Shown here one piece after another: positions 18,762-51,535 of a DNA stretch of 64,000 nt. This stretch comes from Flavivirga spongiicola. Its GTDB lineage: Bacteria > Bacteroidota > Bacteroidia > Flavobacteriales > Flavobacteriaceae. Numbering within the stretch: position 1 is the first letter of the stretch; the number at the start of each line of letters is the position of its first letter. The notes below the pieces were generated by a model. The model was not told the DNA's origin. It saw only the letters and a program-made list of their open reading frames with translations, and did not search any database. The stretch covers positions 2,825,001-2,889,000 of the forward strand of contig NZ_JAUOEO010000001.1 in the NCBI RefSeq assembly GCF_030540825.1. Direction: 5' to 3'. The position numbers were made by a program, and so were the translations under genes.

Positions 18762-20654
18762 ATGAAAACCAAACTTTTAATAATTGCTGTTCTTTTTGGG
18801 TTTTACTTATCTGCTCAAGAACAAGTAGAACTTGACAATTTAAACGACTTTAAAGTACAGGCTGGAAATTGGCAAATTGTAGGCGATGTAAAGGTAAATA
18901 GGCATATTGATGTGCATCGTAAGCAAGAAGAAGAACGCGATTCAAAAAAGAAAAGGAGAAGAGGGAAGAAAAAAAGGAATGCTGTAGAGCCGTTTAAAGC
19001 AATTGAGTCAACTCCTGGGAATGGCATTCTTTTAAATATAAATGATAAAGAAAAAAATGATGCCCTAGTTACCAATTGGGAACATGGAGATTTACTATTG
19101 GAGTTAGAAGTATTACTTCCAAAAGGATCAAATTCTGGTATTTATTTTCAAGGCAGATATGAATTGCAGTTAAAAGATAGTTGGGGTGTTAAAAATCCCT
19201 TAGGTTCTGATATGGGTGGATTTCATAATAATTGGGAAACAGATGAAGATAAAATTTTTAGAGGCATTCCACCAACTAGTAATGCATCAAAAGCTCCTGG
19301 ATTATGGCAAAAATATAAAGTACATTTTCAAGCACCACGTTTTAATGAGGCTGGTGAAAAAATTTCAAATGCCAAATTTATTTCAGTAGATTTAAATGGT
19401 GTTCGAATTCATAGTAATGTTGAGGTTTCAACATATACCGGCGGTCCAATTGAAAAGAACGAAGTAGCAAAAGGACCTTTGTTAATTCAAGGAAACCATG
19501 GGCCAGTTGCAATTAGGAATTTTAAATACCAATTACTAAAAGAATCTTCGGTATCACTAGCATCGCTTTCATACGTTACTTACAAAGGAGCTTTTAAAGG
19601 ATTAGACGAATTAAATGATCGAGCTAAAGTATCGTCTGGTAAGGCTAATAATATTGATGTTCTTAGTACCGGCGAAGAAGATGAATATGGCATCATGTAT
19701 ATAGGGAATTTAAGTATTGGAGAGGAAGATACTTACACTATTAATGTTGGTTACACAGGAGGTGTTAAATTAATTGTTGATAACAAAAAAATTGTAGAAG
19801 ATAATTCTTCGAGCGGACAAGGGTTATTAAAAGGAGATATGAAATTAACAAAAGGAGAACATAAGTTTCTTCTAATCAATATTAAATCTGCTGGTTGGAG
19901 AGCGCCACGGTTAGGACTATCAATTAAGAGTAAATCGACAAATTCGAAAGATTTTCATACCTACGATTCTTACCCTCCAAACATAAACACGGTATCTCCA
20001 ATTTTTGTTCAACCAGATTCTAAACCACGCTTGTTAAGAGCTTTTGTGAGTTTTAATGGAGATGGAAAACGCCTATCGCACACCATAGGTGTAGGCACAC
20101 CTGAAGGCGTAAACTATGTTTACGATTTAGGAGCAGGAAACCTTGTTGGAGTTTGGCGTGGCGATTTTGTTGATGCAACACCCATGTGGCATAGTAGAGG
20201 GGATGGATCGTTTAAACCAAAAGGAGCTGTACAATGGACTTTTTTAAACCAGCCTATAGCTCAACTTTCAAGTTTGAATGAAGCTTTTCCAGATACAGGA
20301 ATAGCTCCGGATTTCGTTCCTAAAGGTTATACAATTGATAAAGCTTCTGAGTTACCAGTGTTTAAATATCGATATAAAGATGTTGATATTGAAAATAGGA
20401 TAACATTAGATAGCAACAATAATTATGTTGTCAATGATATTCAATTTTCAAAATCTGGATTAACAAACTGGTTTTGCAAATTAGCTTCTGGCAAAGTGAA
20501 AAAAATGACTGACGGCTCTTATCTTGTAGAAGAGCAGCAATATTATGTAAAGGTATTAACGGGTCAGACACCAGTAGTACGAGAAGTTAATGGAGAAACA
20601 GAATTGATAATTCCTGTTGATGGTAGTAAAATTAAATATGAAATAATTTGGTAG
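18762..20654 (+). CDS. exported DUF1080 (3-keto-disaccharide hydrolase-like) protein with PA14-like and extra domains
   Basis: Signal peptide (FYLSAQE), then a DUF1080/LamG-like domain with PKGSNSGIYFQGRYELQLKD and GNHGPVAIRNFKYQLL, residues about 80-255. DUF1080 proteins are named 3-keto-disaccharide hydrolases. A PA14-like segment follows (about 275-390, YTINVGYTGGVKLIVDNKKI). The last 230 residues resemble the N-terminal part found in heme-binding sugar dehydrogenases. A run of Lys/Arg (residues 53-73, KKKRRRGKKKR) interrupts the DUF1080 start, which is unusual. The cytochrome gene begins 2 nt after its stop, so the two proteins probably act together on an oxidised sugar in the periplasm. 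Confidence 0.8.
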   Translation: MKTKLLIIAVLFGFYLSAQEQVELDNLNDFKVQAGNWQIVGDVKVNRHIDVHRKQEEERDSKKKRRRGKKKRNAVEPFKAIESTPGNGILLNINDKEKNDALVTNWEHGDLLLELEVLLPKGSNSGIYFQGRYELQLKDSWGVKNPLGSDMGGFHNNWETDEDKIFRGIPPTSNASKAPGLWQKYKVHFQAPRFNEAGEKISNAKFISVDLNGVRIHSNVEVSTYTGGPIEKNEVAKGPLLIQGNHGPVAIRNFKYQLLKESSVSLASLSYVTYKGAFKGLDELNDRAKVSSGKANNIDVLSTGEEDEYGIMYIGNLSIGEEDTYTINVGYTGGVKLIVDNKKIVEDNSSSGQGLLKGDMKLTKGEHKFLLINIKSAGWRAPRLGLSIKSKSTNSKDFHTYDSYPPNINTVSPIFVQPDSKPRLLRAFVSFNGDGKRLSHTIGVGTPEGVNYVYDLGAGNLVGVWRGDFVDATPMWHSRGDGSFKPKGAVQWTFLNQPIAQLSSLNEAFPDTGIAPDFVPKGYTIDKASELPVFKYRYKDVDIENRITLDSNNNYVVNDIQFSKSGLTNWFCKLASGKVKKMTDGSYLVEEQQYYVKVLTGQTPVVREVNGETELIIPVDGSKIKYEIIW

Positions 20655-20656
20655 AC

Positions 20657-22612
20657 ATGATGAACAAAATAATTCATAATAAAGTTAATAATAGTATTAA
20701 AATCGTAATCATACTGGTTGTTATTGGTTTTACTCAAATTATAATCGCTCAAAATACTCCTAAAGAGGAAGATTATTATCGTATAACTAAAGTGCCTACT
20801 CCCGAAGGTATTAAAGTTGAAGGTGGAGGCGTATTGTCGCTTCCTGATGGAAGTATAGCCGTTTGTACCAGACGTGGCGATGTTTGGATTATTGAAAACC
20901 CAACCATGGGTAATGGCACCCCATCTAAATTTATAAAGTTTGCTTCAGGGCTGCACGAACCATTAGGGTTAGCCTATCGAGATGGGGCATTATATACAGC
21001 TCAGCGAGGAGAGCTTACTAAGCTTGTAGATACAGATGGAGATAGAATTGCTGATGTTTATCAAACCATTTATGCATGGCCATTATCAACACACTATCAC
21101 GAATATTCTTTTGGGCCCGTTTTAGCTCCAGATGATGCATTTTTTGTAACTGCCAATGTCGCTTTTGGAAGTGAAGAATGGTGGCGAGGAGAAAGTCGTG
21201 TGCCATGGCGAGGATGGACGATGAAAATTTATGAAGACGGACGTATGGAACCTTGGGCAACAGGAATGCGTTCTCCTGCTGGTTATGGCCTTATTGATGG
21301 AGAATTGTTCTATACTGATAACCAAGGAGATTGGGTTGGTTCTGGAGGGTTATGGCATTTGCCTAAAGGAGTGGTTACTGCACACCCTGCTGGACTTAAA
21401 TGGAGTGGACATAAAGATTCTCCTATAAAACTTACTGAAGCGGAATTTTATGCTAAAATAGATATGCGTCAAGTTAAAAAAAATGGACGCTACGTAAAGC
21501 CTGAAAATATTATTGATGAGGAAGATCCAGATTTTGTTTATGAAGCAAAAGAATCTTTTCCAGAAATGCAATTGCCAGCTGTAGTTTTACCACATGGAAT
21601 TTTAGGAATCTCAAATTCGGAAGTGAAAGTAGATAAAACTGAAGGTAAATTTGGACCATTCAGCGGACAAGTATTAATAGGTGATATGGGGCAGAGTAAA
21701 ATAATGCGTGTGGTTCTTGAAAAAGTAAAAGGAGAATATCAAGGCGTTGCTTTCGATTTTAGATCGGGCTTTCAGTCTGGTGTGATGCGTATGGATTTTG
21801 ACAAAAGCGGAAACCTTTTTGTTGGGGAAACCAATAGAGGTTGGGGATCGGCTGGAACTACAAATTCTGGTTTAGAATACCTTACATGGACAGGTCGCGT
21901 TCCTTTTGAAATGAAAACAGTAAAATCGATGCCTGATGGTTTTGAGATAGAGTTCACAAAGCCTGTTGATAAAAGTTCTGCTGAAGATTTGGATTCTTAC
22001 AAAGGCAAAAGTTATATATATAAATATCATGCTGCTTATGGTAGCCCACAAGCAAATTTGGAAACTATTAATTTAAAAGGTGTTAAAGTTAGTGAAGATG
22101 GTTACAAGGTTCGTATTGTAACAGATAATTTAAGACCATTTTATGTGCACGAAATGACCTTGCCAGGTGTTAAGGAAAAAGAATCTGGTCAGTTAACTTT
22201 ACACCCAACATTTTACTATACATTAAATAATATAGCAGAAGGTGACAGGCTAGAATTATCTCAGCTTTCAACAAAACGATCATCTAGTATTAAAAAGAAA
22301 GTGGTTAAAAAACCTAGAGTTAGCAAAACTGCAGCAACCAAAAAAAGGAAAACTGTTTTAACTGATGCGCAAGTACAACCTCTTTTAACTAATAATACCT
22401 GTGTGGCATGTCACCATAAGGAAAAAAGACTCGTCGGGCCTTCTTTTAAATTAATTGCAAAACGTAATTATACTGATGAGGAAATGGTGAAACTTATTTA
22501 TAATCCACAGCCTAAAAACTGGCCAGAGTACGCAACACCTATGGCACCAATGCCTCAGGTTCCAAAGGTAGAGGCTCTTAAAATAGCAGCTTGGATTAAT
22601 TCTTTGAAGTGA
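20657..22612 (+). CDS. sorbosone/glucose dehydrogenase-like protein with C-terminal cytochrome c
   Basis: Exported redox protein (signal VIGFTQIIIAQ). A beta-propeller of the PQQ-type sugar dehydrogenase superfamily fills most of it (LPDGSIAVCTRRGDVWII, PLGLAYRDGALYTAQRGEL, MRSPAGYG). A Lys/Arg-rich linker near residues 539-566 leads to a class I cytochrome c domain with CVACH (C582, C585, H586) and a candidate axial Met in TPMAPMPQ. The start is set at the ATG at 20657, 2 nt after the upstream stop; the frame is open further but only from a TTG. It probably oxidises a sugar or carries electrons from the GMC dehydrogenases toward the respiratory chain. Confidence 0.82.
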   Translation: MMNKIIHNKVNNSIKIVIILVVIGFTQIIIAQNTPKEEDYYRITKVPTPEGIKVEGGGVLSLPDGSIAVCTRRGDVWIIENPTMGNGTPSKFIKFASGLHEPLGLAYRDGALYTAQRGELTKLVDTDGDRIADVYQTIYAWPLSTHYHEYSFGPVLAPDDAFFVTANVAFGSEEWWRGESRVPWRGWTMKIYEDGRMEPWATGMRSPAGYGLIDGELFYTDNQGDWVGSGGLWHLPKGVVTAHPAGLKWSGHKDSPIKLTEAEFYAKIDMRQVKKNGRYVKPENIIDEEDPDFVYEAKESFPEMQLPAVVLPHGILGISNSEVKVDKTEGKFGPFSGQVLIGDMGQSKIMRVVLEKVKGEYQGVAFDFRSGFQSGVMRMDFDKSGNLFVGETNRGWGSAGTTNSGLEYLTWTGRVPFEMKTVKSMPDGFEIEFTKPVDKSSAEDLDSYKGKSYIYKYHAAYGSPQANLETINLKGVKVSEDGYKVRIVTDNLRPFYVHEMTLPGVKEKESGQLTLHPTFYYTLNNIAEGDRLELSQLSTKRSSSIKKKVVKKPRVSKTAATKKRKTVLTDAQVQPLLTNNTCVACHHKEKRLVGPSFKLIAKRNYTDEEMVKLIYNPQPKNWPEYATPMAPMPQVPKVEALKIAAWINSLK

Positions 22613-22675
22613 TGGTTTAAAAATAGGGTCTTCACTAGATTTCAAAATTTTTACACGTAACTAATATTTTTCAAT

Positions 22676-22711: not shown

Positions 22712-22726
22712 GATTTATAATAACGA

Positions 22727-25700
22727 CTAGCGTTTATAATTCAATAATATCCAATTCATATTTGCGATATATTGTTCTTTATCGGTCTCATTTTTAAATA
22801 CAAGGTATAGTGAAGCCTTATCAGTTTTTGGATTTACAGGTATTTTATAATACTTCATGAGGCCTTTATCTTTGTTGAAATACTTTAAGTGGGTTTTACC
22901 AATAAGATTTCCGTTAGGCGATCCTTCTCTAATTTCAACATCACCTTCATAAGCATAGTTGCCTGCAAAAAACGCAGATAGTTTTATACTTTCTAAACCG
23001 TTTAAAGGTAGCGTGTCAAATTTTAAATATGAATTATGAACAATAGAACCTACGAGGTTTTGTCCATCAGCACTCCAACTTCCAAGGCCATTACTTTTCT
23101 CAATAGCATCTTCAGCTTCAATTTTAGGTGTTTTAAAAATAATTTGCTCCCTAGTAGATAGCTTAGATTCTGGTTGGTCTTCGTTGCCATTGTCTAAATA
23201 AGAAGCCATTAAGACATACATGCCTTCATTTTTACTCCCTATATGTTTATCAAATGTTATAGAGCCCTTTATTGGCAATTGCTTTTTTGCAGGAGTGTTA
23301 TCTGGCTTTAGTGATAATATGTATTTAATCATTTTTTCAACTTCACCCTGGTTTAATTGTGGGTGAGCAGACATCATAGTTTCTCCCCATACACCAGTAC
23401 CTCCTTTTATAACTTTACTGATTAAATAACCAGCATCATCGGATGTGTATTTTTCTGCAATCTCGATATAACTAGGTCCATTTACCTTTTCTTTTTCGGC
23501 ATGACAGGCTTTGCAATCGCTTCCATCTATAAGTTTTCTGCCTTCTGGGACTGTGTTTTGCTGATGCCCTAAAGTGGCCTTTATTAAATCGTTTCCTTCA
23601 GGAATATAATCTAAAGTGACTTTTATTTTATTGGTATCAATAGAACCATCTGTAGTGCTACCATCTTGTTTATCTGTTACAGTTACCGTGTAGTTTACTT
23701 TTTTATAATCCCAAAAGGATGTGTTTTCAGGGTCTATTTGGATGGTTAGTTCTGGCGGGTCGTTACCTACCAAAAGCTTAGTTTCCGTAGTATTCGTTTC
23801 TCCTTTTTGATCAGTCACTGTTAAACTTACAGTATAAGTCCCGGATTCATTAAAGGTAAATGAAGGGTTTACTTCTGTTGATTGTACTTCATCATTAGTA
23901 AAAGACCACTTGTAAGTTAGCTTATCGTTATCATAATCTAAGGATTCTGATGCTGAGAACTGAACAGTCAATGGTGTTGAACCAACCTCTTTATCGTTAA
24001 TGATTTTTGCTATGGGTTTTCTGTTTCCTTTTATATAAGATATTCGGTTTAAGCGGGCATCTAAGTTTTGAGAATTCCATTTTTGACCATATTCTAAAAC
24101 ATACAAAGTACCATCCTTCCCAAAAATCATGTCCATAGGATGCGAGAATTCGGTATTGGGCATAAACGGTTCTGCTTTTTTATAATTATGATTCTCATCA
24201 AGTGTAACTACATAAACCCAATCTCTCATCCATTCATATACAATAAGTTTTCCTTCAAAATATTTAGGAAAACTATTGTCTTTTGCATTGGGATGATTTG
24301 AAGCATGAAAAATTGGTCCTGCCATTGGGTTTACACCACCAACTCCCAGCCACGAAAATTCTTCTGATTTATCATAAGAATACCAGATTAATGATTCTTG
24401 TGCGTCAGGCAGTTCTTTTAAACCTGTATTGTTTGGGGAATCATTGACTAAATTATTGGGATCAAATTTTGCTCCCGATTCTTGAGTTATAAAATTATAA
24501 TCGTTATATACTTGATTATTTCCTCTAGTATATGGCCAGCCCCAAAACCCTGCTTTTCTTGCTTGGTCAAACTCACCCATGCCTTTGGGCCCTCTGTTTG
24601 GATTTTCTGTTCCTGCATCTGGACCAACATCGCCCCAATAGAGATATCCTGTTTCACTATCAATAGACGGTCTAAAAGGATTTCTACAACCCATGACGTA
24701 AATTTCAGGTTTGGTGTTTGGTGTGCCTTCAGGAAACAAATTTCCCTTAGGAATAGAGTAGGTGCCATCTTTTTCAGGCTTAATTCTTAATATCTTTCCT
24801 CTTAAATCATTTGTATTTGCAGCTGATTTTTGGGCATCCCATAATGCGCGTTCTGGGCGCTCATCAATAGGAGTATAGCCAGAGGATTCAAAAGGGTTTG
24901 TGTTATCCCCTGAAGTAATGAATAAGTTTCCATCTGGACCAAATTCTAAGGCGCCACCACTATGACAGCATTCCCTTATAGTAGGAATTTTGAGGAGTAT
25001 TTTTTCAGAATCAAGAATTAATGTTTTGTCAATCAGATCAAAGCGAGATACATATTGCAATGGTTCATCTCCAGGAGCTGAATAAAACAAATAAATCCAA
25101 TGATTCCTTTTGTAGTTTGGGTCTACTGCTAAACCAAGTAATCCATCCTCATTTCCATAAAACAAATCTATCTGAGCAATGGTTTCGGTCTGTTCTGTTT
25201 TAAAATCAAATAATTTTAATGCACCACGGCGCTCAATAAATAAAATACCTTCTTCAGGTAATTCATCCAACTCCATAGGCTCATTAAGGTTAAGATCTAA
25301 AACTTGTTTAACAAAACGATTTTCTGGTGGTACACGATCTGATGTTGCTTTTCTATAATCTAAATTATTTTTACCAATAGCATATATAATACCTCCTAAT
25401 AAATGATTTAAAAATAAAGGATTTGTATATGTATCATTGGTATGTCCCATTTCTGTGTAAAAAGCACGACCTCCATCAAAATTATGATACCAAGAGATTG
25501 GATGGTTTTCTCCATTAGTTCCACCTTCATAAGTGGTTTCGTCTATAGTAATTAGTACGTTAATATCTGGATTGATGTTTTTAAAATTGTACCACTCATC
25601 TTTTTTTACCCAAGTATCTTCAAGGTTCATGGTTGATTTGTGGTTTTTATCTACCACATTAAGTGTTGCCTCTTGTATTCTTGGATGCCCTTCAAAATAA

Positions 25701-26089
25701 GCACCTACAAGTTTGTTGTACCAAGGCCATTCATATTCGGTGTCGGTAGCAGCATGTATGCCTACAAAGCCACCGCCTGCTTGTATATAGCGTTCAAAAT
25801 CGGCTTGCTGTTCGTAATTTAAAATATTGCCTGTTGTATTTAAGAAAACTACTGCAGAAAACTGTTTTAATGAATCTTCTACAAAATAAGTAGAGTCTTC
25901 AGTAGCAACGACTTTAAAATCATTTTCTTCACCTAGTTTTATTAATGCATTTATTCCAGTTTCTATAGAACCATGTCTGAACCCCTCAGTTTTACTAAAA
26001 ACAAGTATTCTTTTCTCCTTTCTACTACATGATCCCAACATAATAGTTACGATTAGAATCAAAAGGGGTTTTATTAATTTAGGTTTCAT
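22727..26089 (-). CDS. ThuA / PQQ-type sugar dehydrogenase / PKD / cytochrome c / carbohydrate-binding-like fusion lipoprotein
   Basis: A 1120-residue lipoprotein (LGSC, C21) with five parts. The ThuA-like domain (27-240, FSKTEGFRHGSI, GGGFVGIHAATD) belongs to a family linked to 3-ketodisaccharide breakdown. The glucose/sorbosone dehydrogenase propeller (about 265-685) contains NEDGLLGLAVDP, CCHSGGALEFGPDGNLFI and GDVGPDAG. A PKD domain (about 690-775) follows. A cytochrome c domain has CKACH at 859-863. The final part is CBM6-like (about 985-1115). It is the last gene of the lacI-xylB-xylA unit, 34 nt after xylA. It likely oxidises or cleaves sugars at the cell surface and passes electrons to its own heme. 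Confidence 0.85.
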   Translation of the reverse strand: MKPKLIKPLLILIVTIMLGSCSRKEKRILVFSKTEGFRHGSIETGINALIKLGEENDFKVVATEDSTYFVEDSLKQFSAVVFLNTTGNILNYEQQADFERYIQAGGGFVGIHAATDTEYEWPWYNKLVGAYFEGHPRIQEATLNVVDKNHKSTMNLEDTWVKKDEWYNFKNINPDINVLITIDETTYEGGTNGENHPISWYHNFDGGRAFYTEMGHTNDTYTNPLFLNHLLGGIIYAIGKNNLDYRKATSDRVPPENRFVKQVLDLNLNEPMELDELPEEGILFIERRGALKLFDFKTEQTETIAQIDLFYGNEDGLLGLAVDPNYKRNHWIYLFYSAPGDEPLQYVSRFDLIDKTLILDSEKILLKIPTIRECCHSGGALEFGPDGNLFITSGDNTNPFESSGYTPIDERPERALWDAQKSAANTNDLRGKILRIKPEKDGTYSIPKGNLFPEGTPNTKPEIYVMGCRNPFRPSIDSETGYLYWGDVGPDAGTENPNRGPKGMGEFDQARKAGFWGWPYTRGNNQVYNDYNFITQESGAKFDPNNLVNDSPNNTGLKELPDAQESLIWYSYDKSEEFSWLGVGGVNPMAGPIFHASNHPNAKDNSFPKYFEGKLIVYEWMRDWVYVVTLDENHNYKKAEPFMPNTEFSHPMDMIFGKDGTLYVLEYGQKWNSQNLDARLNRISYIKGNRKPIAKIINDKEVGSTPLTVQFSASESLDYDNDKLTYKWSFTNDEVQSTEVNPSFTFNESGTYTVSLTVTDQKGETNTTETKLLVGNDPPELTIQIDPENTSFWDYKKVNYTVTVTDKQDGSTTDGSIDTNKIKVTLDYIPEGNDLIKATLGHQQNTVPEGRKLIDGSDCKACHAEKEKVNGPSYIEIAEKYTSDDAGYLISKVIKGGTGVWGETMMSAHPQLNQGEVEKMIKYILSLKPDNTPAKKQLPIKGSITFDKHIGSKNEGMYVLMASYLDNGNEDQPESKLSTREQIIFKTPKIEAEDAIEKSNGLGSWSADGQNLVGSIVHNSYLKFDTLPLNGLESIKLSAFFAGNYAYEGDVEIREGSPNGNLIGKTHLKYFNKDKGLMKYYKIPVNPKTDKASLYLVFKNETDKEQYIANMNWILLNYKR

Positions 26090-26123: not shown

Positions 26124-27434
26124 TTATATGTAGCTGTTTATTAATTGCTCTAATAATTCTTGTTTGCCGCTTTTCAATTCTGGTTCCCCATGCTTTGAAG
26201 CTAGCATATTTAGGTCTAGCAAACTGAGTTTGCCTTGTTCAAAATCTTTACCTGGTCCAGAGTTAAACGAATCATATCTTTTTTTCTTCATATCTAGATA
26301 TACAGAATCAGAGAGTATTTTTTCTGCAGTTACAAGGGCTCTTGCAAATGTATCCATACCACTAATATGTGCGATAAATAAATCTTCCATGTCTGTAGAA
26401 TTTCGTCTTGTTTTAGCATCGAAATTAATACCACCGTGCTCAAATCCATTGTTTTGCAATATTATCATCATCGCTTCTGTAACTTCATATATATTGGTAG
26501 GAAACTCATCAGTATCCCAACCATTTTGATAATCGCCTTTATTAGCATCAATACTTCCTAACATATTAGCATCAGATGCCACCTGCAGTTCATGTGCAAA
26601 AGAATGTCCTGCTAATGTTGCATGGTTAACTTCTAAGTTTAATTTAAAGTCATTATTCAAATCATATTTATTAAGAAAGCCTAGTACGGTAGCTGCATCA
26701 AAATCATATTGATGTTTGGTAGGTTCCATGGGTTTGGGTTCAATAAAAAATGTGCCTTTAAAACCTTGAATTCTGGCATAATCTCTTGATTTGGTTAAGA
26801 ACATAGCTAAGTGTTCTATTTCTTTTTTCATGTTGGTATTAAGCAACGACATATAACCTTCTCTGCCTCCCCAAAATACATAGCCAGAACCTCCGAGTGC
26901 TATAGTGGCATCAATAGCGTTTTTGACTTGTACCGAAGCCTTAGTTAATACATTGAAATCTGGATTTGTTGCAGCACCATTCATGTATCGAGGATTAGAA
27001 AATACATTTGCCGTACCCCAAAGCAATTTAATACCATATTCTGCTTGCTTGTTTTGGGCATAGGGTACTATTTTGTGTAAACGCTTTTCAATTTCAAAAA
27101 CACTTCCATCGCCTACTAAATCAGTGTCATGAAAGCAATAATAAGGAATGCTAAGTTTATCAATAAATTCAAAAGCAGCATCCATTTTATGTTTTGCAAC
27201 GGTTAAAGGGTCATTATTAGTTGTATCCCAAGGAAATATTTTTGTTCCTGGACCAAAAGGATCTCCTCCTTCGCCACAGAAGGTATGCCAATAAGAAACA
27301 GCAAACTTTAAATGGGCTTTCATTGTTTTGCCATTAATGACTTGGTTTTCATCATACCATTTGAAAGAAAGAGGATTTTTAGAATGTCTTCCTTCAAATT
27401 TAATTTTATTAATTTTTGGAAAATATGCGCTCAC
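26124..27434 (-). CDS. xylA: xylose isomerase
   Basis: Converts D-xylose to D-xylulose in the cytoplasm. Full family length (436). It shows the N-terminal [16 protein letters not shown], the catalytic His region YYCFHDTD (H102), and the metal-binding segments [35 protein letters not shown] and GSIDANKGD. It overlaps xylB by 4 nt, so translation is probably coupled. Its presence in a sugar-oxidation locus implies that xylose is released by or fed into the pathway. Confidence 0.97.
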
Positions 27435-41460: not shown

Positions 41461-41568
41461 TAAGAATTTTAACCATCATTATAACTAAAACGAAGAAAAT
41501 GATAATTAAGTTCTTAAATATTTGGAAAATTAATTAATTTGCGCTATATCAATGTTCAAATTATTTCA

Positions 41569-42890: not shown

Positions 42891-43856
42891 ATGAATACAA
42901 AACATTTTATGTATAGTGCTACTAGAATAATTATAGTCCTGTCAATATTTGTTTTTTCTGCTTGCAAAAAATCTAAAGAAAATAAAGCTTCAAATATAAC
43001 AGAAGAAATTGAAGCCCCTATATTCTTCAAAATTTCCTTAGCGCAATGGTCTTTACATAAAAAAATTGGAAGTGGAAAAATGAACCCTTTTGATTTTGCT
43101 AAAGAAGCCCATGCCTTAGGTTTTGAAGCCATTGAATATGTTAGCGGTCTTTATAATAAAGAGGTAAACGATTTAGGGATAGATGAGGTGGTTAAAAAGC
43201 TAAAAGCTGAAAGTGAAAAACACGGCGTTAAAAATTTACTAATAATGGTTGATGGAGAAGGTAATTTGGCCAGTAATAATGAAGACCATTTAAATACTGC
43301 TGTCGAAAACCATAAAAAATGGGTAGATGCTGCAAAGGCCTTAGGATGCCATTCTATTAGAGTCAATGCTCACGGAGAAGGTACTTATGAAGAGGTTATG
43401 GAACAAGCTGTTATTGGTTTAGGAAAATTATCAGAATACGCAGAAACGCAAGGGATAAATGTGTTGGTAGAAAATCATGGAGGATATACTTCAAATGGAC
43501 AATGGCTAGCAGCAGTCATGCAAAAGGTGAATAAGCCAAACTGTGGAACATTACCGGATTTTGGCAATTTTTGCATTAAGCGTAAAAAAGATGGATGTGA
43601 AGAAGCATACGATAAATATAAAGGTGTTAAAGAATTGATGCCTTATGCAAAGGCTGTAAGTGCTAAGTCGTACGATTTTGATGAAAAAGGAAATGATACA
43701 AGAATTGATTATTTAAAGATGTTGCAAACAGTAAAAGATGCAGGTTATTCAGGTTTCATTGGTATTGAGTATGAAGGCAATATGATGTCTGAAGAGAAAG
43801 GGATTGAGGCCACTAAAAATTTGTTATTGCGAGTAGGGAAACAACTTTCTAAATAA
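42891..43856 (+). CDS. TIM-barrel sugar isomerase/epimerase lipoprotein
   Basis: Lipoprotein (FVFSAC) with an AP-endonuclease-2-type TIM barrel. Segments include SLAQWSLHKKIGSGKMNPFDFAKEA in part, GCHSIRVNAHGEG, INVLVENHGGYTSNG, NCGTLPDFGNFCI and GFIGIEYEGN, the last ones carrying metal ligands. First gene of the rightward unit. Being lipidated, it should act in the periplasm, in contrast to the second isomerase of this unit. Confidence 0.86.
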   Translation: MNTKHFMYSATRIIIVLSIFVFSACKKSKENKASNITEEIEAPIFFKISLAQWSLHKKIGSGKMNPFDFAKEAHALGFEAIEYVSGLYNKEVNDLGIDEVVKKLKAESEKHGVKNLLIMVDGEGNLASNNEDHLNTAVENHKKWVDAAKALGCHSIRVNAHGEGTYEEVMEQAVIGLGKLSEYAETQGINVLVENHGGYTSNGQWLAAVMQKVNKPNCGTLPDFGNFCIKRKKDGCEEAYDKYKGVKELMPYAKAVSAKSYDFDEKGNDTRIDYLKMLQTVKDAGYSGFIGIEYEGNMMSEEKGIEATKNLLLRVGKQLSK

Positions 43857-43883: not shown

Positions 43884-45053
43884 ATGGAAAGTATCAATAA
43901 AAATAAACTTTTCCTGGCAAGCTGTCTTGCTTTAATTACGACAGCTATGACCTTTGCTATAAGAGCAAGGTTAGAAACCGTTTTTGGGCCAGAGGGTATT
44001 GGGTTAACCTTAGAACAACTAGGATATGCTTTTGCACCAGCCTTTTTTGGATTTACAATTGCAATGATTATCGGAGGACCATTGGTCGATTTACTAGGAA
44101 TTAAAAAAATTACTTGGATTGCTTTTTTTACACACATTATTGGAATTGTGTGGACGCTTATGGCAGATTCTATGACATCTCTTTTTATAGCAACATTATT
44201 TGTCGGTATTGGTAACGGAATGGTTGAAGCTGCGCTAAATCCATTAGTGGCATCTATGTTTCCAGAAAACAAAACCAAAATGCTTAATAGGTTTCATGTA
44301 TGGTTTCCAGGGGGTATCGTAATTGGTTCCTTGTTAGGATGGTTAATAATGGATATTATGGGACTAAGCTGGCAAGTTATGGTGGGAACGTTATTTATTC
44401 CACTAATAATTTACGGGATGATGTTTTTTGGCCAAAAATTCCCTGTAACTGAGCGCGTACAGTTAGGAATTAGTAATAAAAAAATGTTTAAGAGTGTGTT
44501 GAATCCGCTATTCTTATTTATGGTGCTTTGTATGTTTCTTACGGCAGCTTCAGAATTAGGAACGACACAGCGTATTGAATCGCTATTAAAAACTTCTGTG
44601 TCTGCACCTTTACTTGTACTGGCTTTTATAAATGGTATTATGGCTTTGGGTAGATTATCTGCAGGTCAAGTGGTTCATAAATTAAGCCCTTCAGGCATGT
44701 TGTTGTATTCTGCTATATTCACTTTTATTGGTCTTTGGATGTTGACAATAACTAGTGGAGGAATGACATTTGTTGCAGCGGCGATTTTTGCTGTAGGTGT
44801 TACTTTTTTCTGGCCAACCATGTTAGGCTTTGTAGCTGAATATTTGCCAGAAACAGGTGCTTTAGGGCTTTCTGTTATGGGTGGAGCAGGTATGTTTTCT
44901 GTATCTATAGTATTGCCAGTTATGGGAAGGCTTATGGATGACGCCAATGCTGCAGAAGCATTGCGTACAATGTCTATTTTACCAGCAATTCTAATCGTAG
45001 CATTTTTAGGATTGAATATCTACATGAAAAAGCGAAAAACAGAACAGTTGTAA
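43884..45053 (+). CDS. MFS sugar transporter
   Basis: Inner-membrane permease of 389 residues with about 12 helices and the MFS loop pattern near helix 2-3 (GGPLVDLLGIKKI). The helices LALVLAFINGIMALGRLSAGQVVHKL and VGVTFFWPTMLGFVAEYLPETGA are typical of the sugar-type branch. It probably moves the periplasmic (keto-)sugar to the cytoplasm, where the Gfo/Idh and isomerase encoded next lack export signals. Confidence 0.87.
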   Translation: MESINKNKLFLASCLALITTAMTFAIRARLETVFGPEGIGLTLEQLGYAFAPAFFGFTIAMIIGGPLVDLLGIKKITWIAFFTHIIGIVWTLMADSMTSLFIATLFVGIGNGMVEAALNPLVASMFPENKTKMLNRFHVWFPGGIVIGSLLGWLIMDIMGLSWQVMVGTLFIPLIIYGMMFFGQKFPVTERVQLGISNKKMFKSVLNPLFLFMVLCMFLTAASELGTTQRIESLLKTSVSAPLLVLAFINGIMALGRLSAGQVVHKLSPSGMLLYSAIFTFIGLWMLTITSGGMTFVAAAIFAVGVTFFWPTMLGFVAEYLPETGALGLSVMGGAGMFSVSIVLPVMGRLMDDANAAEALRTMSILPAILIVAFLGLNIYMKKRKTEQL

Positions 45054-45075
45054 TTTTCTGTCTAAAAGAAAAAAA

Positions 45076-46209
45076 ATGTCACAAAAAATAAAATTAGGAA
45101 TACTTGGCGGCGGCGGTGATTCCCTTATAGGTGTGCTACATAGAGTAGCTTCTTCAATGTATGATAAATATCAACTGGTTGGAGGTGTTTTTAACCCTGT
45201 TTGGGAAGAAAATATAGGTTTCGCACAGAAATTAGAATTATCTGCTAATCGCATTTATATAGATTTTGATACATTTATTGAAGAAGAATTAAAGCTTCCA
45301 GAGTCTGAAAGAATAGAAGTGGTCTCAGTACTTACACCAAATTTTTTGCACTTTCCTATGGCGAAAAAATTGATAGAGAATGGGTTTCATGTTATATGCG
45401 AAAAACCATTAACAACCACACTTGTTGAAGCTAAGATTTTAGAAAGCGCACTTAAAAAATCAAATACAGTTTTTGCAGTAACGTATACCTATACTGGGTA
45501 TCCTATGATTCGTCAAATGCGAGAAATGATTCAATCTGGTACTATAGGAGAAGTACAGAAAGTAGATGTTCAATATTATCAGGGATGGATAAACCCCATA
45601 CTACTGGATAAAGAATTACGAAAAACAATATGGCGCTTAGATCCTAAAAAAGCAGGAATAAGTAGTTGTATAGGAGATATTGGAACGCACGCTTTTAATA
45701 TGGCAGAATATTTAACAGGACAGAAAGTGAAATCAGTTCTGGCAGACCTTAATATGCGCTACGAGGACAATCAACTAGATGTGGATGGCACCATATTGAT
45801 ACGTTTTTCAGAATATGTTAAGGGTGTTATAAGATCAAGTCAAATTGCCACTGGAGAAGAAAATGGCCTTGAAGTAAAGATATATGGAACAAAAGGAGGA
45901 TTTAACTGGAAACAGGAAAATCCAAACTATCTATATTATTTAACAGAAGATAAGCCATTACAAGTATTAAAACCAGGACATGGTTACAATGGAGACGTGT
46001 CATTAAATGGGACGAAGTTACCACCTGGACATCCTGAAGGTATATTCGATTCTATGGGAAATATTTATTATGGTGTAGCAAAGGCAATTAGAAAGAAAAC
46101 ATACGATAGCGGTGAGTATCCAACAATGAATGACGGTGTTCGAGGTATGAAATTCATAGAAAAATGTGTTGAATCTCACAAGTCAGGAAATATTTGGTTA
46201 GATATATAG
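45076..46209 (+). CDS. cytoplasmic Gfo/Idh/MocA-family oxidoreductase
   Basis: NAD(P)-dependent sugar oxidoreductase without a signal peptide. Rossmann motif KLGILGGGGDSLIGVLHRVA, catalytic-lysine motif CEKPLTTTLVEA, and substrate-domain segments IRQMREMIQSGTIGEV and SCIGDIGTHAFNMAEYL. Family length (377). It may reduce 3-keto sugars after uptake, or oxidise intact disaccharides inside the cell. Confidence 0.9.
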   Translation: MSQKIKLGILGGGGDSLIGVLHRVASSMYDKYQLVGGVFNPVWEENIGFAQKLELSANRIYIDFDTFIEEELKLPESERIEVVSVLTPNFLHFPMAKKLIENGFHVICEKPLTTTLVEAKILESALKKSNTVFAVTYTYTGYPMIRQMREMIQSGTIGEVQKVDVQYYQGWINPILLDKELRKTIWRLDPKKAGISSCIGDIGTHAFNMAEYLTGQKVKSVLADLNMRYEDNQLDVDGTILIRFSEYVKGVIRSSQIATGEENGLEVKIYGTKGGFNWKQENPNYLYYLTEDKPLQVLKPGHGYNGDVSLNGTKLPPGHPEGIFDSMGNIYYGVAKAIRKKTYDSGEYPTMNDGVRGMKFIEKCVESHKSGNIWLDI

Positions 46210-46254: not shown

Positions 46255-47307
46255 ATGAAAACAATAAAAGGACCTGCTGTTTTTTTAGCACAATTTGCTG
46301 GAGATAATGCCCCATTTAATAGTTTGGACGGGATATGTGAATGGGCGTCAGGTTTAGGATATAAAGGCATACAAATTCCTACTTGGGAATCTCGCTTCAT
46401 AGATCTAGATAAAGCGGCATCAAGTAAAACATATTGCGATGAGTTAAAGGGGAAAGTGCAGTCTTATGGTCTGGAAATAACAGAACTGGCAACACATTTA
46501 CAAGGGCAACTCGTTGCGGTACATCCAGCATACGATTTAATGTTTGACAATTTTGCGCCGGATGATTGTAAAAACAATCCTAAAAAAAGAACAGAATGGG
46601 CCGTACAACAAGTTAAAAACGCTGCTATTGCCAGTAAGCATTTAGGCATTAAAGCGCATGCTACATTTTCTGGATCGTTACTTTGGCATACCATATACCC
46701 ATGGCCTCAAGCGCCAAACGGATTGGTAGAAATGGGTTTTGAAGAATTGGCTAAACGGTGGCTTCCCATTTTAGATGTTTTTGAAGATAACGGGGTAGAC
46801 CTTTGTTACGAAATACATCCAGGAGAGGATTTACATGACGGGGTGACATTTGAACGTTTCTTAAAAGCGACGGGAAATCATAAACGTGTTAATATATTGT
46901 ACGATCCAAGTCATTTTGTATTGCAACAATTAGACTATTTAAAATACATTGATTATTACCATGAGTTTATTAAAATGTTTCATGTAAAGGATGCAGAATT
47001 TAATCCATCTGGAAAAAGTGGCGTGTATGGTGGTTTTCAAAGTTGGAAAGATAGGGCAGGAAGATTTAGGTCTTTAGGTGATGGACAAGTAGATTTTAAA
47101 AGTGTTTTTTCTAAATTAACCAAGTATGGATGTGATGTTTGGGCAGTTATGGAATGGGAATGCTGTATAAAAGCTTCTGCTCAAGGAGCCAAAGAAGGTG
47201 CGCCTTTTATTCAAAAGCATATTATTGAAGCTACAGAAAAAGGATTTGATGATTTTGCTGGCGGTGAAATTGGTAAAGAACAGTTAAAGAAAATACTCGG
47301 AATATAA
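46255..47307 (+). CDS. cytoplasmic TIM-barrel sugar isomerase/epimerase
   Basis: 350-residue AP-endonuclease-2 fold without signal. Metal-site segments VDLCYEIHPGEDLHDG, NILYDPSHFVLQQLDYL, KMFHVKDAEF and VWAVMEWECC are intact. The neighbours suggest a keto-sugar substrate. Confidence 0.88.
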   Translation: MKTIKGPAVFLAQFAGDNAPFNSLDGICEWASGLGYKGIQIPTWESRFIDLDKAASSKTYCDELKGKVQSYGLEITELATHLQGQLVAVHPAYDLMFDNFAPDDCKNNPKKRTEWAVQQVKNAAIASKHLGIKAHATFSGSLLWHTIYPWPQAPNGLVEMGFEELAKRWLPILDVFEDNGVDLCYEIHPGEDLHDGVTFERFLKATGNHKRVNILYDPSHFVLQQLDYLKYIDYYHEFIKMFHVKDAEFNPSGKSGVYGGFQSWKDRAGRFRSLGDGQVDFKSVFSKLTKYGCDVWAVMEWECCIKASAQGAKEGAPFIQKHIIEATEKGFDDFAGGEIGKEQLKKILGI

Positions 47308-47340: not shown

Positions 47341-49059
47341 ATGCAAATAAAAGAATCTCCTGAAACTTTTGATGTTATTATTGTTGGTTCTGGAGCTGGT
47401 GGAGGTATGGCTACTAAAATACTCTCTGAAGCTGGTTTAAACATAGCAGTCATAGAAGCTGGTCCATTTTACGATCCTGCAGATCCGGTTTCACGTACGC
47501 AGCTAAAATGGTCTTATGAATCGCCTAGAAGGGGTGCTGGATCCACAAGAGATTTTGGCGATTTTGATGCTGCTTATGGTGGGTGGGATATAGAAGGAGA
47601 GCCATATACAAAAAAACACGGGACAAAATTTGATTGGTTTAGATCTAGAATGTTGGGAGGAAGAACCAATCACTGGGGAAGAATTTCCTTAAGGTTTGGA
47701 CCATTGGATTTTAAAAGAAAAAGTATAGATGGCTTAGGTGATAACTGGCCCATTTCTTATGAAGATGTTAAACCTTATTATGATAAGGTCGATAAACTCA
47801 TTGGTGTTTTTGGAAGCAAAGAAAATTTACCGAATGATCCTGATGGTTTCTTTTTACCAGCACCAAAACCGAGACTCCATGAGTTATATTATATTAAAGG
47901 AGCAAGAAAGGCTAACATACCTGTATACCCTTCACGCTTATCCATTTTAACAAAACCCATAAACGATAGTAGAGGTGTTTGTTTTTATTGTGCTCAGTGT
48001 AGTAGGTCATGCAGTGTTTATGCGGATTTTTCTTCAGGGTCCTGCTTGATATTTCCAGCACAAAAATCTGGAGGGCAGATAAAACTCTATACCAACTCTA
48101 TGGTAAGAGAAGTTGTTACAGACGATTCTGGTAAAGCAACAGGTGTTATTTTTATTAATAAGCTGGATAGAAAAGAATATAAATTAAATGCCAAAGTAGT
48201 TGTTTTGGCAGCCTCAGCATGTAGTACCGCAAGAATTTTACTAAATTCTAAAAGTAAAGTTCATAAAGATGGATTAGGAAATAGTAGCGGATTAGTTGGT
48301 AGATATTTACATGATTCTACGGGTACCGATCGGGTAGCATTTGTTCCTGAATTAATGAATAGAGAGACTTACAATGAAGATGGCGTTGGAGGTATGCATG
48401 TGTATTCACCTTGGTGGGGTAATCATAAAAAGTTAAATTTCCCAAGAGGATATCATACTGAAATCTGGGGTGGGCTAGGTATGCCTAGTTATGGATTTGG
48501 GTTTAATATAACGGGGTTAAATAAATTTATAGGTGGTCAGGTAGGCGGTTATGGAAATAGTTTAAGAGATGATATTAAGAGATTTTATGGAGCAGTTATA
48601 GGGATTGCTGGTAGAGGTGAAAGTATTCCGGTGGAAAGTAATTACTGTGAGATAGACCCTGATGTTGTTGATGAATGGGGGATTCCTGTATTGAGATTTC
48701 ATTATGAATGGAGTCAACATGAAAAATTACAGGCAAAGCATATGCATCAAACATTTGAAGACATTTTTGATGGTATGGGCGCACAAGTGTTAGGGGATAG
48801 ACCAAATAAAGAGAATGACTATGGGCTGTTAACTCCTGGGAGGATCATTCATGAAGTCGGAACAACAAGGATGGGAGACGATCCTAAAAAATCGGTTACA
48901 AATAAGTATCAGCAATTACACGATGTTGATAATGTTTTTATTGTTGATGCAGGTCCTTTTGTATCACAGGCAGACAAAAACCCGACATGGACCATACTGG
49001 CTTTGTCATGGAGAACCTGTGATTATATTGTAAGTGAATTGAAAAAACAAAATATTTAA
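47341..49059 (+). CDS. GMC-family FAD sugar dehydrogenase with predicted 3Fe-4S site, second copy
   Basis: 572 residues, the same length as the leftward-arm enzyme but clearly diverged. FAD motif DVIIVGSGAGGGMATKIL, His504 (IIHEVGTTRMG) and Asn547 (DKNPTWTI). C214-x5-C220-x3-C224 matches the 3Fe-4S spacing, with an extra C217 between. There is no signal peptide; export is expected through the Tat-bearing subunit 3 encoded next. The divergence suggests a different sugar from the first GMC enzyme. Confidence 0.92.
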   Translation: MQIKESPETFDVIIVGSGAGGGMATKILSEAGLNIAVIEAGPFYDPADPVSRTQLKWSYESPRRGAGSTRDFGDFDAAYGGWDIEGEPYTKKHGTKFDWFRSRMLGGRTNHWGRISLRFGPLDFKRKSIDGLGDNWPISYEDVKPYYDKVDKLIGVFGSKENLPNDPDGFFLPAPKPRLHELYYIKGARKANIPVYPSRLSILTKPINDSRGVCFYCAQCSRSCSVYADFSSGSCLIFPAQKSGGQIKLYTNSMVREVVTDDSGKATGVIFINKLDRKEYKLNAKVVVLAASACSTARILLNSKSKVHKDGLGNSSGLVGRYLHDSTGTDRVAFVPELMNRETYNEDGVGGMHVYSPWWGNHKKLNFPRGYHTEIWGGLGMPSYGFGFNITGLNKFIGGQVGGYGNSLRDDIKRFYGAVIGIAGRGESIPVESNYCEIDPDVVDEWGIPVLRFHYEWSQHEKLQAKHMHQTFEDIFDGMGAQVLGDRPNKENDYGLLTPGRIIHEVGTTRMGDDPKKSVTNKYQQLHDVDNVFIVDAGPFVSQADKNPTWTILALSWRTCDYIVSELKKQNI

Positions 49060-49234: not shown

Positions 49235-49942
49235 ATGAAAAGACGTGATAGCATTAAGACCATACTGTTAGGTTCTGTAGCCACAGGATTAGTACTAAAT
49301 GGATGTACTACAAAAACACCATCTGTTGATGAACTACCCGAGATTAAAGAAGTACCCTTATATGGTCGAACAGAAGAGGAGACTTTAAGAGATCAAGAAT
49401 TGTTCGAATCCAATTTTTTTAATGAGCACGAGCTTGCCACCATAGCGGTTTTGTGTGATATTATACTTCCCAAGAGTGATCCATATGTTTCTGCGACAGA
49501 TGCAGGTGTAAAAGAGTTTATAGATTTTATTGTTAAAGATATAGAGAAACAACAAATACCATTAAGAGGTGGTATTATGTGGTTAGATAGTTTTAGTAAT
49601 AAGTTGTATAACAAAGCATTTATTACATGTACAGACGAGGAGCAATTTTATATTTGTGATCAAATAGCATATCCGGAAAAAACAAAGCCAGAACTCATAC
49701 AAGGAGAAGCATTTTTTACAAGAATGCGTAATTTAACGCTAACAGGCTATTACACTTCAAAAGAAGGTATCAAAGAATTAGGTTATAAAGGAAACACGCC
49801 AAACATTTGGGATGGTGTGCCCGAAGAGATTCTTAAAAAGCATGGGTTTAAATATGAAGAAGCATGGTTGGCTAAATGTGTAGATCAATCCAATAGAAGT
49901 AATATTGCAAAATGGGATGACGAAGGAAATTTGATTAGTTGA
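49235..49942 (+). CDS. gluconate 2-dehydrogenase subunit 3-like lipoprotein with Tat signal
   Basis: MKRRDSIKTILLGSVATG carries a twin-arginine motif followed by VLNGC, a likely lipobox, so the small subunit may anchor its GMC partner to the membrane. The subunit 3 domain follows (LATIAVLCDIILPKSDPYVS, GVKEFIDFIVKD, DEEQFYICDQI). Unlike the leftward arm, here it lies 175 nt after the GMC gene instead of overlapping it. Confidence 0.9.
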   Translation: MKRRDSIKTILLGSVATGLVLNGCTTKTPSVDELPEIKEVPLYGRTEEETLRDQELFESNFFNEHELATIAVLCDIILPKSDPYVSATDAGVKEFIDFIVKDIEKQQIPLRGGIMWLDSFSNKLYNKAFITCTDEEQFYICDQIAYPEKTKPELIQGEAFFTRMRNLTLTGYYTSKEGIKELGYKGNTPNIWDGVPEEILKKHGFKYEEAWLAKCVDQSNRSNIAKWDDEGNLIS

Positions 49943-49962
49943 AAATTGAAAAAATTATAGTT

Positions 49963-50724
49963 ATGAAATATTTAAAGTTAATGCCTATAAAACCATTAAT
50001 CTATTTACTAATTATGCTAATGGTTACAACTTCTTGTAAACTACGAAAAGGGAAAACATCTATTGAAGAAAGAAAGGTTGACGTTGCTGAAAAGAAAATG
50101 ACTGAAGAATGGGTAACGCTTTTTGATGGATCATCTTTTAATAACTGGCGCGGATATTTATCAGATAAGATGCCTTCTGAATGGTCCATTGAAGATGGAA
50201 CTATGGCTTTTACCCCAGGAGAACATGGCGGAAAAAATATTATAACAAAAGAAAAATATACCAATTTTGTCTTATCACTTGAATGGAAGATTTCAGAATT
50301 AGGTAATAGTGGTATTTTTTGGAGTGTTTTTGAAGACGAGGCTTTTCCTGAAGCCTATCAAACAGGACCAGAAATACAAGTATTAGACAACAAAAAATAT
50401 GCAGACGCAGAAGTGAATCACAAACACCACCAAGCCGGGGCACTATACGATATGGTGCCACCTGCTCATGATGTCTGCAAGCCAGCTGGAGAATGGAACA
50501 CATGTTTAATCAAGGTGGATCATAAGTCAAATTCTGGTAGTGTTACATTAAACGGAACAGTCATAGCAGAATTTGCTGTTCATGGCTCGACATGGGATGC
50601 CTTAGTTGCAAAATCAAAGTTTAAGGACTGGAAAGGCTTTGGGAAACATCAGACGGGTCATATAGGACTTCAAGATCATGGTAATAAAGTTTGGTTTAGA
50701 AATATTAAGATTAAAAAATTATAA
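49963..50724 (+). CDS. DUF1080 lipoprotein (3-keto-disaccharide hydrolase family)
   Basis: Lipoprotein (LMVTTSC) with one DUF1080 domain: WVTLFDGSSFNNWRGYLSDK, LGNSGIFWSVFEDE, PEIQVLDNKKYADAEVNHKH and HIGLQDHGNKVWFRNIKIKKL. The ATG at 49963 is chosen; the open frame extends back to a TTG overlapping the previous gene. It likely cleaves the keto-glycoside made by the adjacent GMC enzyme. Confidence 0.88.
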   Translation: MKYLKLMPIKPLIYLLIMLMVTTSCKLRKGKTSIEERKVDVAEKKMTEEWVTLFDGSSFNNWRGYLSDKMPSEWSIEDGTMAFTPGEHGGKNIITKEKYTNFVLSLEWKISELGNSGIFWSVFEDEAFPEAYQTGPEIQVLDNKKYADAEVNHKHHQAGALYDMVPPAHDVCKPAGEWNTCLIKVDHKSNSGSVTLNGTVIAEFAVHGSTWDALVAKSKFKDWKGFGKHQTGHIGLQDHGNKVWFRNIKIKKL

Positions 50725-50728
50725 AGTT

Positions 50729-51535
50729 TTGAATATTAGAAAAATAACCCTAATAATATTAGTGACACCTTGTCTTTTTGCATGTACCAATGGTAAAGAA
50801 AATAAAACTTCTATAGAGATAGAGGCAGAAGAGGAAGTCGTACTTAAAGAACCAACAACTCCCGAAGAAACAGAGCTTTATAAACCTATACCGCCAACGG
50901 TTAACCCTACAGGGCAAAATGGCGTTCCGAGTGATGCTATGGTGTTATTTAATGGTGAGAATTTAGACCGTTGGGTGCATGCTAAAGATCAGACACCAGC
51001 ACAGTGGATTTTAAATGATGATGGTTCGATGACCGTTAAAGACAAATCTGGAGATATTCAAACGAAGCAAGAATTTGATTGTATACAGTTACATATAGAA
51101 TGGCGGTCTTCACCAGAGAAAAGAGCAAGTGGGCAAAGTAGAAGTAATAGTGGTGTTTTTCTTCAAGAACGTTATGAAGTACAGGTTTTAGATAATAATG
51201 ATAACGATACTTATGTTAACGGACAAGTTGGATCTATTTACAAACAATCCATTCCTTTAGTAAAAGCCTCAGTGCCAACTGGCGAATGGAATGCCTATGA
51301 TATTATTTATCACGCTCCAGAATTCAATTCTGAAGGAAAAAAAACAAAATCTGGAACGATTACCGTGTTACACAATGGCATTTTAATTCAAGACCATTAT
51401 GAAATAAAAGGAACGACACCATATATTGGTTGGCCTAAAAATAATCCACATGGTAAGGGCGCAATAAGACTTCAGGACCACCATGATAATAGCGGTGTAA
51501 GCTATAGAAATATTTGGGTTAGGGAGTTGCATTAA
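50729..51535 (+). CDS. DUF1080 lipoprotein, second in tandem
   Basis: Lipoprotein with signal ending in CLFAC and an acidic linker (IEAEEEVVLKEPTTPEETEL), then a DUF1080 domain: MVLFNGENLDRWVHAKDQTP, NSGVFLQERYEVQVLDN and AIRLQDHHDNSGVSYRNIWV. Start unclear: TTG at 50729 gives a normal-length lipoprotein signal. ATG at 50678 would overlap the previous gene by 47 nt and add a hydrophilic leader. Two unlike DUF1080 enzymes in a row suggest two linkage types or sequential steps. Confidence 0.84.
   Translation: MNIRKITLIILVTPCLFACTNGKENKTSIEIEAEEEVVLKEPTTPEETELYKPIPPTVNPTGQNGVPSDAMVLFNGENLDRWVHAKDQTPAQWILNDDGSMTVKDKSGDIQTKQEFDCIQLHIEWRSSPEKRASGQSRSNSGVFLQERYEVQVLDNNDNDTYVNGQVGSIYKQSIPLVKASVPTGEWNAYDIIYHAPEFNSEGKKTKSGTITVLHNGILIQDHYEIKGTTPYIGWPKNNPHGKGAIRLQDHHDNSGVSYRNIWVRELH

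Follow-up and report, generated by a model that had tools for sequence, protein, structure and literature searches.

The locus at positions 18762-51535 of a 64,000-nt window (the whole stretch of DNA analysed) from the four-contig, 5.9-Mb genome of Flavivirga spongiicola (G000:C1:2825001-2889000) is real and functionally coherent, a richer variant of a known pathway of glycoside breakdown. It is read here, with a probability of about 75%, as an enlarged oxidation-elimination-hydration-reduction pathway, and the cluster most likely breaks sugar linkages by oxidation and elimination, not by ordinary hydrolysis. Its core is of the known flavin-dependent 3-keto-glycoside type, since there are precedents in Agrobacterium and Caulobacter and similar operons in Proteobacteria and Hymenobacter. 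A search of the open-access literature by title and the start of the abstract returned no description of this locus, subscription papers being mostly outside its scope.

The cytoplasmic TIM barrel encoded at 46255-47307 matches PDB entry 8ro4, a 2-hydroxy-3-keto-glucal hydratase, over residues 1-349 of 350 (E 4.7e-168), and this strong homology points to the same activity for the window protein. Its gene adjoins that of a Gfo/Idh protein without an export motif (45076-46209), which is a candidate for the reductase. Four locus proteins carry a PF06439 (DUF1080) domain scoring above the cut-off, and the one at 49939-50724 matches BT2157-type structures. An earlier annotation of this stretch (the sequence-only reading) had called the DUF1080 proteins hydrolases, a name that is probably wrong because the PDB titles of their solved relatives read 3-keto-2-hydroxy-glucal hydratase or 3-keto-glycoside eliminase/hydratase. 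For the divergent DUF1080 protein (38267-39076), DUF1080 structures rank first among the matches of a structural model (pLDDT 82.6), with a TM score of ~0.5. The leftward Gfo/Idh protein Gfo1 (33557-34996) matches 8tdf (E 1.4e-104) and 8tdh (E 2.1e-102) and scores 501.5 bits against the BT_2158 profile NF058561, which is under the curated cut-off of 750 and marks it as a relative only; all three Gfo proteins score far under the BT_2159 cut-off. Profiles and motifs further identify a pair of a GMC flavoprotein and a subunit 3 protein with a twin-arginine translocation (Tat) signal in both arms of the locus. The gene families were assigned by Pfam and NCBIfam profile scans of the locus proteins, and open reading frame (ORF) calling shows that the limits of the locus are exact ORF bounds, with an ATG at 18762 and the final stop at 51535. 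The features are as follows.

18762..20654, + strand: secreted 630-aa protein with N-terminal DUF1080 (PF06439, 71.7 bits)
20648..22612, + strand: secreted 654-aa protein with C-terminal CxxCH heme motif; no Pfam match
22727..26089, - strand: ThuA-GSDH-PKD-cytochrome c-CBM6-like fusion lipoprotein (Pfam)
26124..27434, - strand: xylose isomerase XylA, the genome's second copy (TIGR02630, 658.7 bits, cut-off 533.25)
27431..28942, - strand: FGGY kinase, XylB-like (TIGR01312, 307.4 bits, under the cut-off of 380.25)
28950..29978, - strand: LacI-family regulator heading xylB-xylA-ThuA (profile scans)
30234..33050, - strand: TonB-dependent receptor (profile scan)
33152..33541, - strand: TMEM220 membrane protein (PF15071)
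33557..34996, - strand: left Gfo1, Tat-motif Gfo/Idh protein, relative of the BT2158-like glycoside 3-dehydrogenase (NF058561, 8tdf)
35007..35936, - strand: Tat-motif TIM barrel, hydroxypyruvate isomerase/epimerase-like (PF01261; 3ngf, E 9.2e-24)
35938..37266, - strand: left Gfo2, second Tat-motif Gfo/Idh protein (profile scans)
37281..38255, - strand: exported FGE-sulfatase-domain protein (PF03781, 145 bits)
38267..39076, - strand: divergent DUF1080 lipoprotein (PF06439, 130.6 bits)
39088..39696, - strand: left subunit 3, Tat signal and lipobox (PF13618, Gluconate_2-dh3; motif)
39689..41407, - strand: left GMC flavoprotein, without a Tat or lipobox motif of its own (profile scan, motif test)
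41487..41543, + strand: 57-bp conserved block, candidate promoter or operator (comparison of related loci)
41539..42600, + strand: AraC regulator, true start probably slightly downstream (profile scan)
42891..43856, + strand: lipoprotein TIM barrel, candidate eliminase or epimerase
43884..45053, + strand: MFS transporter (PF07690)
45076..46209, + strand: cytoplasmic Gfo/Idh protein, candidate 3-ketoglucose reductase (3v5n, E 2.3e-93)
46255..47307, + strand: cytoplasmic TIM barrel, putative 2-hydroxy-3-keto-glucal hydratase by homology (8ro4)
47341..49059, + strand: right GMC flavoprotein (profile scan)
49235..49942, + strand: right subunit 3, Tat signal (PF13618, 107 bits; motif)
49939..50724, + strand: DUF1080 lipoprotein, BT2157-like (167 bits; 8tda and 8rr2, E 3.5e-39)
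50678..51535, + strand: DUF1080 lipoprotein (131.8 bits)

The profiles bear out the inventory drawn up in the sequence-only reading, namely two GMC and two subunit 3 proteins, four DUF1080 proteins, the ThuA fusion, three Gfo/Idh proteins, an MFS transporter, a TonB receptor and AraC, and AP_endonuc_2 matches likewise support its three TIM barrels besides XylA. Its list had not included the LacI gene (28950-29978), the FGE-sulfatase-domain gene (37281-38255) and the TMEM220 gene (33152-33541). The two divergent gene strings originate at ~41.4-41.5 kb; in the leftward string, the genes from GMC to TMEM220 follow one another closely (gaps of -8 to 15 bp), with spacings of 101 bp from TMEM220 to the TonB receptor and 255 bp from the latter to the LacI string, within which the LacI, xylB, xylA and ThuA genes are separated by 7, -4 and 34 bp. 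The FGE-sulfatase-domain gene lies inside the leftward operon, although the scan of the locus proteins revealed no sulfatase; several sulfatases adjoin some other GMC loci of the same genome and of relatives.

The arms of the locus had been described as mirrored gene sets around the regulator, which holds for the types of gene but not for duplicates, the counterparts being only 22-33% identical, several of them over short stretches; at this identity, duplication of one arm into the other was rejected. Nor does a single arm form the functional core. Eighty loci were fetched by similarity to the left GMC, with relatives counted at set identity limits, and among these subunit 3 was present in 76, the lipoprotein TIM barrel in 76 and the hydratase in 65, with AraC in 17 and the right GMC inside the locus in only three (L001, L003 and L006). 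The left GMC gene and the right-arm set are transcribed divergently in many loci and from the same strand in those of Aquimarina; from these arrangements it follows that the conserved unit crosses the AraC regulator. This unit consists of the left GMC/subunit 3 pair together with the lipoprotein TIM barrel, Gfo, hydratase and DUF1080 protein of the right arm. In addition, members of the left Gfo1 clade (at least 73% identity) lie no more than 6.2 kb from a left-type GMC in 8/8 genomes, including F. spongiicola itself. Of the two alignments prepared, A1 comprises the window protein and 34 of 76 relatives, and A2 the window protein and 24 of 30.

The compartments in which these proteins would act were assigned from export motifs, for which the relatives were scored by a crude Tat/lipobox test; a flag for hydrophobic stretches was not used, as it fires on 33/33 right Gfo and 75/91 GMC proteins, probably at Rossmann starts. 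In the window, the two leftward Gfo proteins and the two subunit 3 proteins carry Tat motifs, as does the leftward TIM barrel when it is read from an internal ATG at 35936, in agreement with the Tat signals claimed earlier for the leftward Gfo/Idh and isomerase proteins; the rightward Gfo and the second TIM barrel lack the motif, as had also been claimed. Among the relatives, the Tat motif recurs in left Gfo1 (7/7), Gfo2 (5/5), the left TIM barrel (16/18), left subunit 3 (84/84) and right subunit 3 (1/2), and was found in none of those of the right Gfo (0/33), the hydratase (0/65) or the left-type GMC (0/91). A lipobox-like motif occurs in 70 of 76 relatives of the lipoprotein TIM barrel.

On this basis, a route through two compartments can be proposed. 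With subunit 3 supplying the Tat signal for export, the GMC/subunit 3 pairs would reach the periplasm and, judging from their family and from precedent, oxidise glycosides at C3. The DUF1080 lipoproteins and/or the exported TIM barrels may then eliminate the aglycone to leave 2-hydroxy-3-keto-glucal, as the solved relatives suggest, and the MFS carrier would import this product. In the cytoplasm, the TIM barrel homologous to 8ro4 would hydrate it to 3-ketoglucose, which the cytoplasmic Gfo would reduce to glucose, by analogy with the Agrobacterium operon. The left Tat-exported Gfo proteins may contribute another 3-oxidation/reduction activity, one that is NAD-type as in Bacteroides. Oxidation at C3, the split between periplasm and cytoplasm and cleavage without a classical glycosidase, all put forward in the sequence-only reading, thus find support in the hydratase match, the Agrobacterium and Caulobacter precedents and the export motifs.

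The closest precedents contain most of these steps. In Agrobacterium tumefaciens (PMC10628242), one operon encodes a GMC dehydrogenase, two TIM barrels, of which one eliminates and the other hydrates, and a Gfo reductase; its steps were assayed, with the evidence for the hydratase termed preliminary by the authors. The window resembles this GlycDH/AtOGE/AtHYD/Gfo set in its GMC protein, two TIM barrels and Gfo for oxidation, elimination, hydration and reduction, and adds DUF1080 lyase candidates, a second GMC/subunit 3 pair, Tat-exported Gfo proteins, a lipoprotein TIM barrel, a TonB receptor and the ThuA fusion. AtOGE (8BVK) was absent from the sequence matches of the three TIM barrels and from the listed fold matches of the lipoprotein TIM barrel, although neither absence proves anything. 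For Caulobacter crescentus, fitness data in a second report (PMC9007349) show that lactose use requires lacABC and that a nearby DUF1080 gene, a transporter, two epimerases and a reductase are important; the same report gives a lactose phenotype for 0/10 DUF1080 genes in Pedobacter. The window shares with lacABC, as described there, a three-part dehydrogenase, DUF1080 protein, transporter, two epimerases and reductase placed close together, but has two GMC pairs, and no cytochrome was found in its core.

Two further systems are related by parts. As in Bacteroides BT2157-BT2160, the window encodes a BT2157-like DUF1080 protein and a BT2158-like Gfo, judged by NCBIfam names and PDB titles, but its Gfo1 falls under the BT_2158 equivalog cut-off and a flavin-dependent GMC protein is joined to the set. 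C-glycoside deglycosylation by DgpA/B/C also proceeds by 3-keto chemistry. According to PDB entries the TIM fold is shared with this system, whereas identity is low and no DUF6379 match was found among the window proteins scanned. A total of 331 plasmid records hold a relative of the hydratase, of which three were chosen and examined, and four annotated plasmid regions (H1, H5, H22 and H26) were examined among 40 matches listed. Pseudoalteromonas and Hymenobacter bring together a Gfo, a hydratase relative, a transporter, DUF1080, GMC and subunit 3; Croceicoccus has a Gfo, hydratase relative, subunit 3, GMC and MFS with a ThuA protein nearby and no listed DUF1080. A Catenovulum locus found through its GMC carries subunit 3, DUF1080, a PVC-type heme protein and a sulfatase.

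The electron acceptor of the flavoproteins had been proposed to be the cytochromes encoded in the locus. Two proteins with a heme motif are indeed present: of the 25 locus proteins checked, only 20648-22612 and 22727-26089 have a CxxCH, one each; however, these lie in the two flanking units, and the motif is absent from the core operons. Relatives of 20648-22612 in L024 and L030 (43-44% identical) have no heme motif, and electron flow to the encoded cytochromes was not accepted as established. Elsewhere, a CxxCH ORF of 162-169 aa stands directly upstream of the GMC gene in 9 of 16 Aquimarina loci (the two scanned are cytochrome c), another five of the 80 loci carry a CxxCH ORF elsewhere, and the Hymenobacter operon includes a c-type cytochrome.

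The block at 41487-41543, upstream of AraC, is possibly a promoter or operator. It is identical at 51-53 of 57 bases in L001, L002 and L119 and at only 31-39 of 57 in 19 other loci tried, the best alternative place in the window giving 34. The block ends in GGAAAATTAATTAATTTGC, variants of which recur 5' of AraC in several further loci.

The second half of the leftward side carries xylAB, and its combination with the 3-keto genes had been put forward as new. Two close relatives share the link. Gaetbulibacter sp. 4G1 (L001/L081) has all the locus genes, LacI-xylB-xylA, ThuA and both outer genes among them; only the last DUF1080 gene had no match in the stretch compared. In Wocania ichthyoenteri (L002/L082), the core and the left arm are present, as are TonB, xylB, xylA, ThuA and both outer genes, with LacI, the right GMC, right subunit 3 and the last DUF1080 gene unmatched. 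The link is not general, for in a sample of 120 genomes of the family, drawn evenly from 119 genera, xylA and the hydratase lie no more than 50 kb apart in only one of the 41 genomes with both, that of the window itself, and a general co-occurrence was rejected; contig breaks may hide links in this count too. One genome of the same genus has the two genes on separate contigs. Of 30 named genomes, 29 were searched for xylA and 23 were positive, but contig identity was settled for only a minority, so that the linkage rests on the 120-genome count.

In another genus (L117/L118), the neighbours of xylB-xylA-LacI are a Gfo, a right GMC of 72% identity, subunit 3 and a TIM barrel that seems to be exported; a ThuA relative lies ~18 kb from xylA. 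Given this pairing and that in the two close relatives, the xylAB link is rare but not confined to one lineage. The xylAB genes form a cassette of their own that is joined to the locus here. The window kinase is 51-53% identical to kinases beside xylA in L115 and L117 and only 24% identical to the kinase adjoining the genome's other xylA, which is itself 64% identical to the window copy and lies at C1:3739739; the genome's other xylB scores 379.5 against TIGR01312, likewise just under 380.25. The joining of LacI-xylB-xylA suggests xylose-containing substrates. In L119/L120, the core and most of the left arm (without Gfo1) are followed by TonB and then, ~25 bp on, by a ThuA relative without xylAB between them; this relative is interrupted by internal stops and extends to the end of the contig. 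The xylA near L011 and L013 was taken as an unrelated neighbour, as it stands in a GH65/GH13 setting beside a rho gene (L083 scanned, L084 not). A GH65/GH13/HAD alpha-glucan cassette (L083:1696-8816) adjoins the L011 locus, and the LacI near L011 therefore probably belongs to it.

The outer genes and the ThuA fusion have relatives in other settings. Distant relatives of 18762-20654 (32-33%) come after TonB in L024 and L030, together with the next gene, and at L121:7474-15595, in another genome, the ThuA fusion adjoins a two-domain DUF1080-HEAT protein and a Tat-type Gfo. Directly before the locus, at 14228-18414 of the window, stand three tandem 453-459-aa proteins with C-terminal thioredoxin/AhpC-like domains.

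Across the 120 genomes, the hydratase occurs in 60, in single copy in 59 of them, and the other parts accompany it closely. Left-type GMC proteins (115 copies) are found in 62 genomes, 58 of which have the hydratase; of the copies in genomes with the hydratase, 65 are no more than 20 kb from it and 42 are farther away. Right-type GMC proteins are found in 30 genomes, all with the hydratase, although only one of 32 copies is linked. For Gfo1 relatives and the ThuA fusion, 49/51 and 21/21 genomes also have it. The xylA control is looser (hydratase in 41 of 53 xylA genomes), and within xylA-bearing genomes the associations of left GMC, right GMC, Gfo1 and ThuA hold with p values of 1e-8, 5e-4, 2e-6 and 2e-3; these values and the link counts are inexact because the genomes are related and contigs broken. 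The exceptions are a left GMC without hydratase in four genomes, the hydratase without left GMC in two, and Gfo1 without hydratase in two.

The unlinked copies sit in gene sets of their own, whose family labels come from home-made hidden Markov models, so that absences there are weak. Subunit 3 is present in 17 of the 20 unlinked left GMC loci sampled from 42, sulfatases in five and a detectable DUF1080 in two; among 20 loci from the 32 right GMC copies, the corresponding numbers are 19, eight (sulfatase-like neighbour) and one. F. spongiicola has two further left-type GMC/subunit 3 pairs: the one in L085 (C2:773501-793400) adjoins four genes for sulfatase-domain proteins and a DUF1080-HEAT protein of two domains, and the one in L086 a hybrid two-component regulator and a Gfo of the GH109 type. 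A 1,883-aa protein of L086 gave a weak PF06439 match (27.5 bits) that was not reproduced at E 0.001. One family occupies the gene after subunit 3 in 9 of 21 right GMC loci (the 20 and L117), and the three members scanned are all AP_endonuc_2 TIM barrels. Some of these GMC loci have a DUF1080 protein as neighbour and others such a barrel, and the lyase slot thus seems to be filled by one or the other.

The single copy of the hydratase, together with the near-constant presence of scattered parts alongside it, suggests a single cytoplasmic hub fed by several periplasmic modules, with the unlinked GMC, Gfo and ThuA modules in other parts of the genome probably sharing this one hydratase. The fuller proposal is tentative and is held at a little under even odds: in half of the sampled family genomes, scattered modules (GMC/subunit 3, BT2158-like Gfo and ThuA fusion, in different and sometimes sulfatase-rich polysaccharide loci) would feed one intermediate to a single cytoplasmic hydratase/reductase pair, and the window would physically join this hub with modules, combining flavin-type and NAD-type 3-oxidation under one AraC.

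An alternative with a substantial, though distinctly minority, chance of being correct is that two independent neighbours merely adjoin, an AraC-controlled 3-keto-glycoside core and a xylose cassette with the ThuA-GSDH protein. The separate regulators, the 255 bp between LacI and TonB, the restriction of joined xylAB to the window genome and two close relatives (one without LacI) and the adjacency of TonB and the ThuA relative without xylAB in L119/L120 would all fit such a chance meeting. However, the constant company of the ThuA fusion and the hydratase in the genome sample argues against it, as does L117, where another genus has xylB-xylA-LacI beside a Gfo and a right-type GMC/subunit 3 pair.

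Two other explanations concern the substrate. The right Gfo has sub-cut-off matches to levoglucosan and inositol dehydrogenases and the hydratase an additional sub-cut-off match to the IolE profile, consistent with action on free or anhydro sugars or inositols (levoglucosan-like, IolE/IolG-like) instead of glycosides; yet the match to the 2-hydroxy-3-keto-glucal hydratase is by far the better one, and no evident role would remain for the DUF1080 proteins, which makes this explanation improbable. Slightly less probable again is a reading of the GMC/subunit 3 pairs as ordinary dehydrogenases of aldoses or fructose that feed the respiratory chain, with unrelated scavenging genes around them: among solved structures, fructose and glucose dehydrogenases come closest to the left GMC by sequence, but this GMC is conserved together with hydratase, DUF1080 and Gfo, and the genome-wide profile also speaks against this. 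The enlarged oxidation-elimination-hydration-reduction pathway is thus the preferred reading.

The locus may therefore be regarded as an unusually rich assembly of a known core, on which several distinct sets of sugar-cleaving genes in one cell may draw. What is new here is the single-copy hydratase and the near-constant companionship of scattered modules with it across 120 genomes of the family. If this is correct, non-hydrolytic glycan breakdown would be a common, modular route in these mostly marine bacteria, one that is invisible to searches for glycoside hydrolases and for which the hydratase would serve as a one-gene marker.

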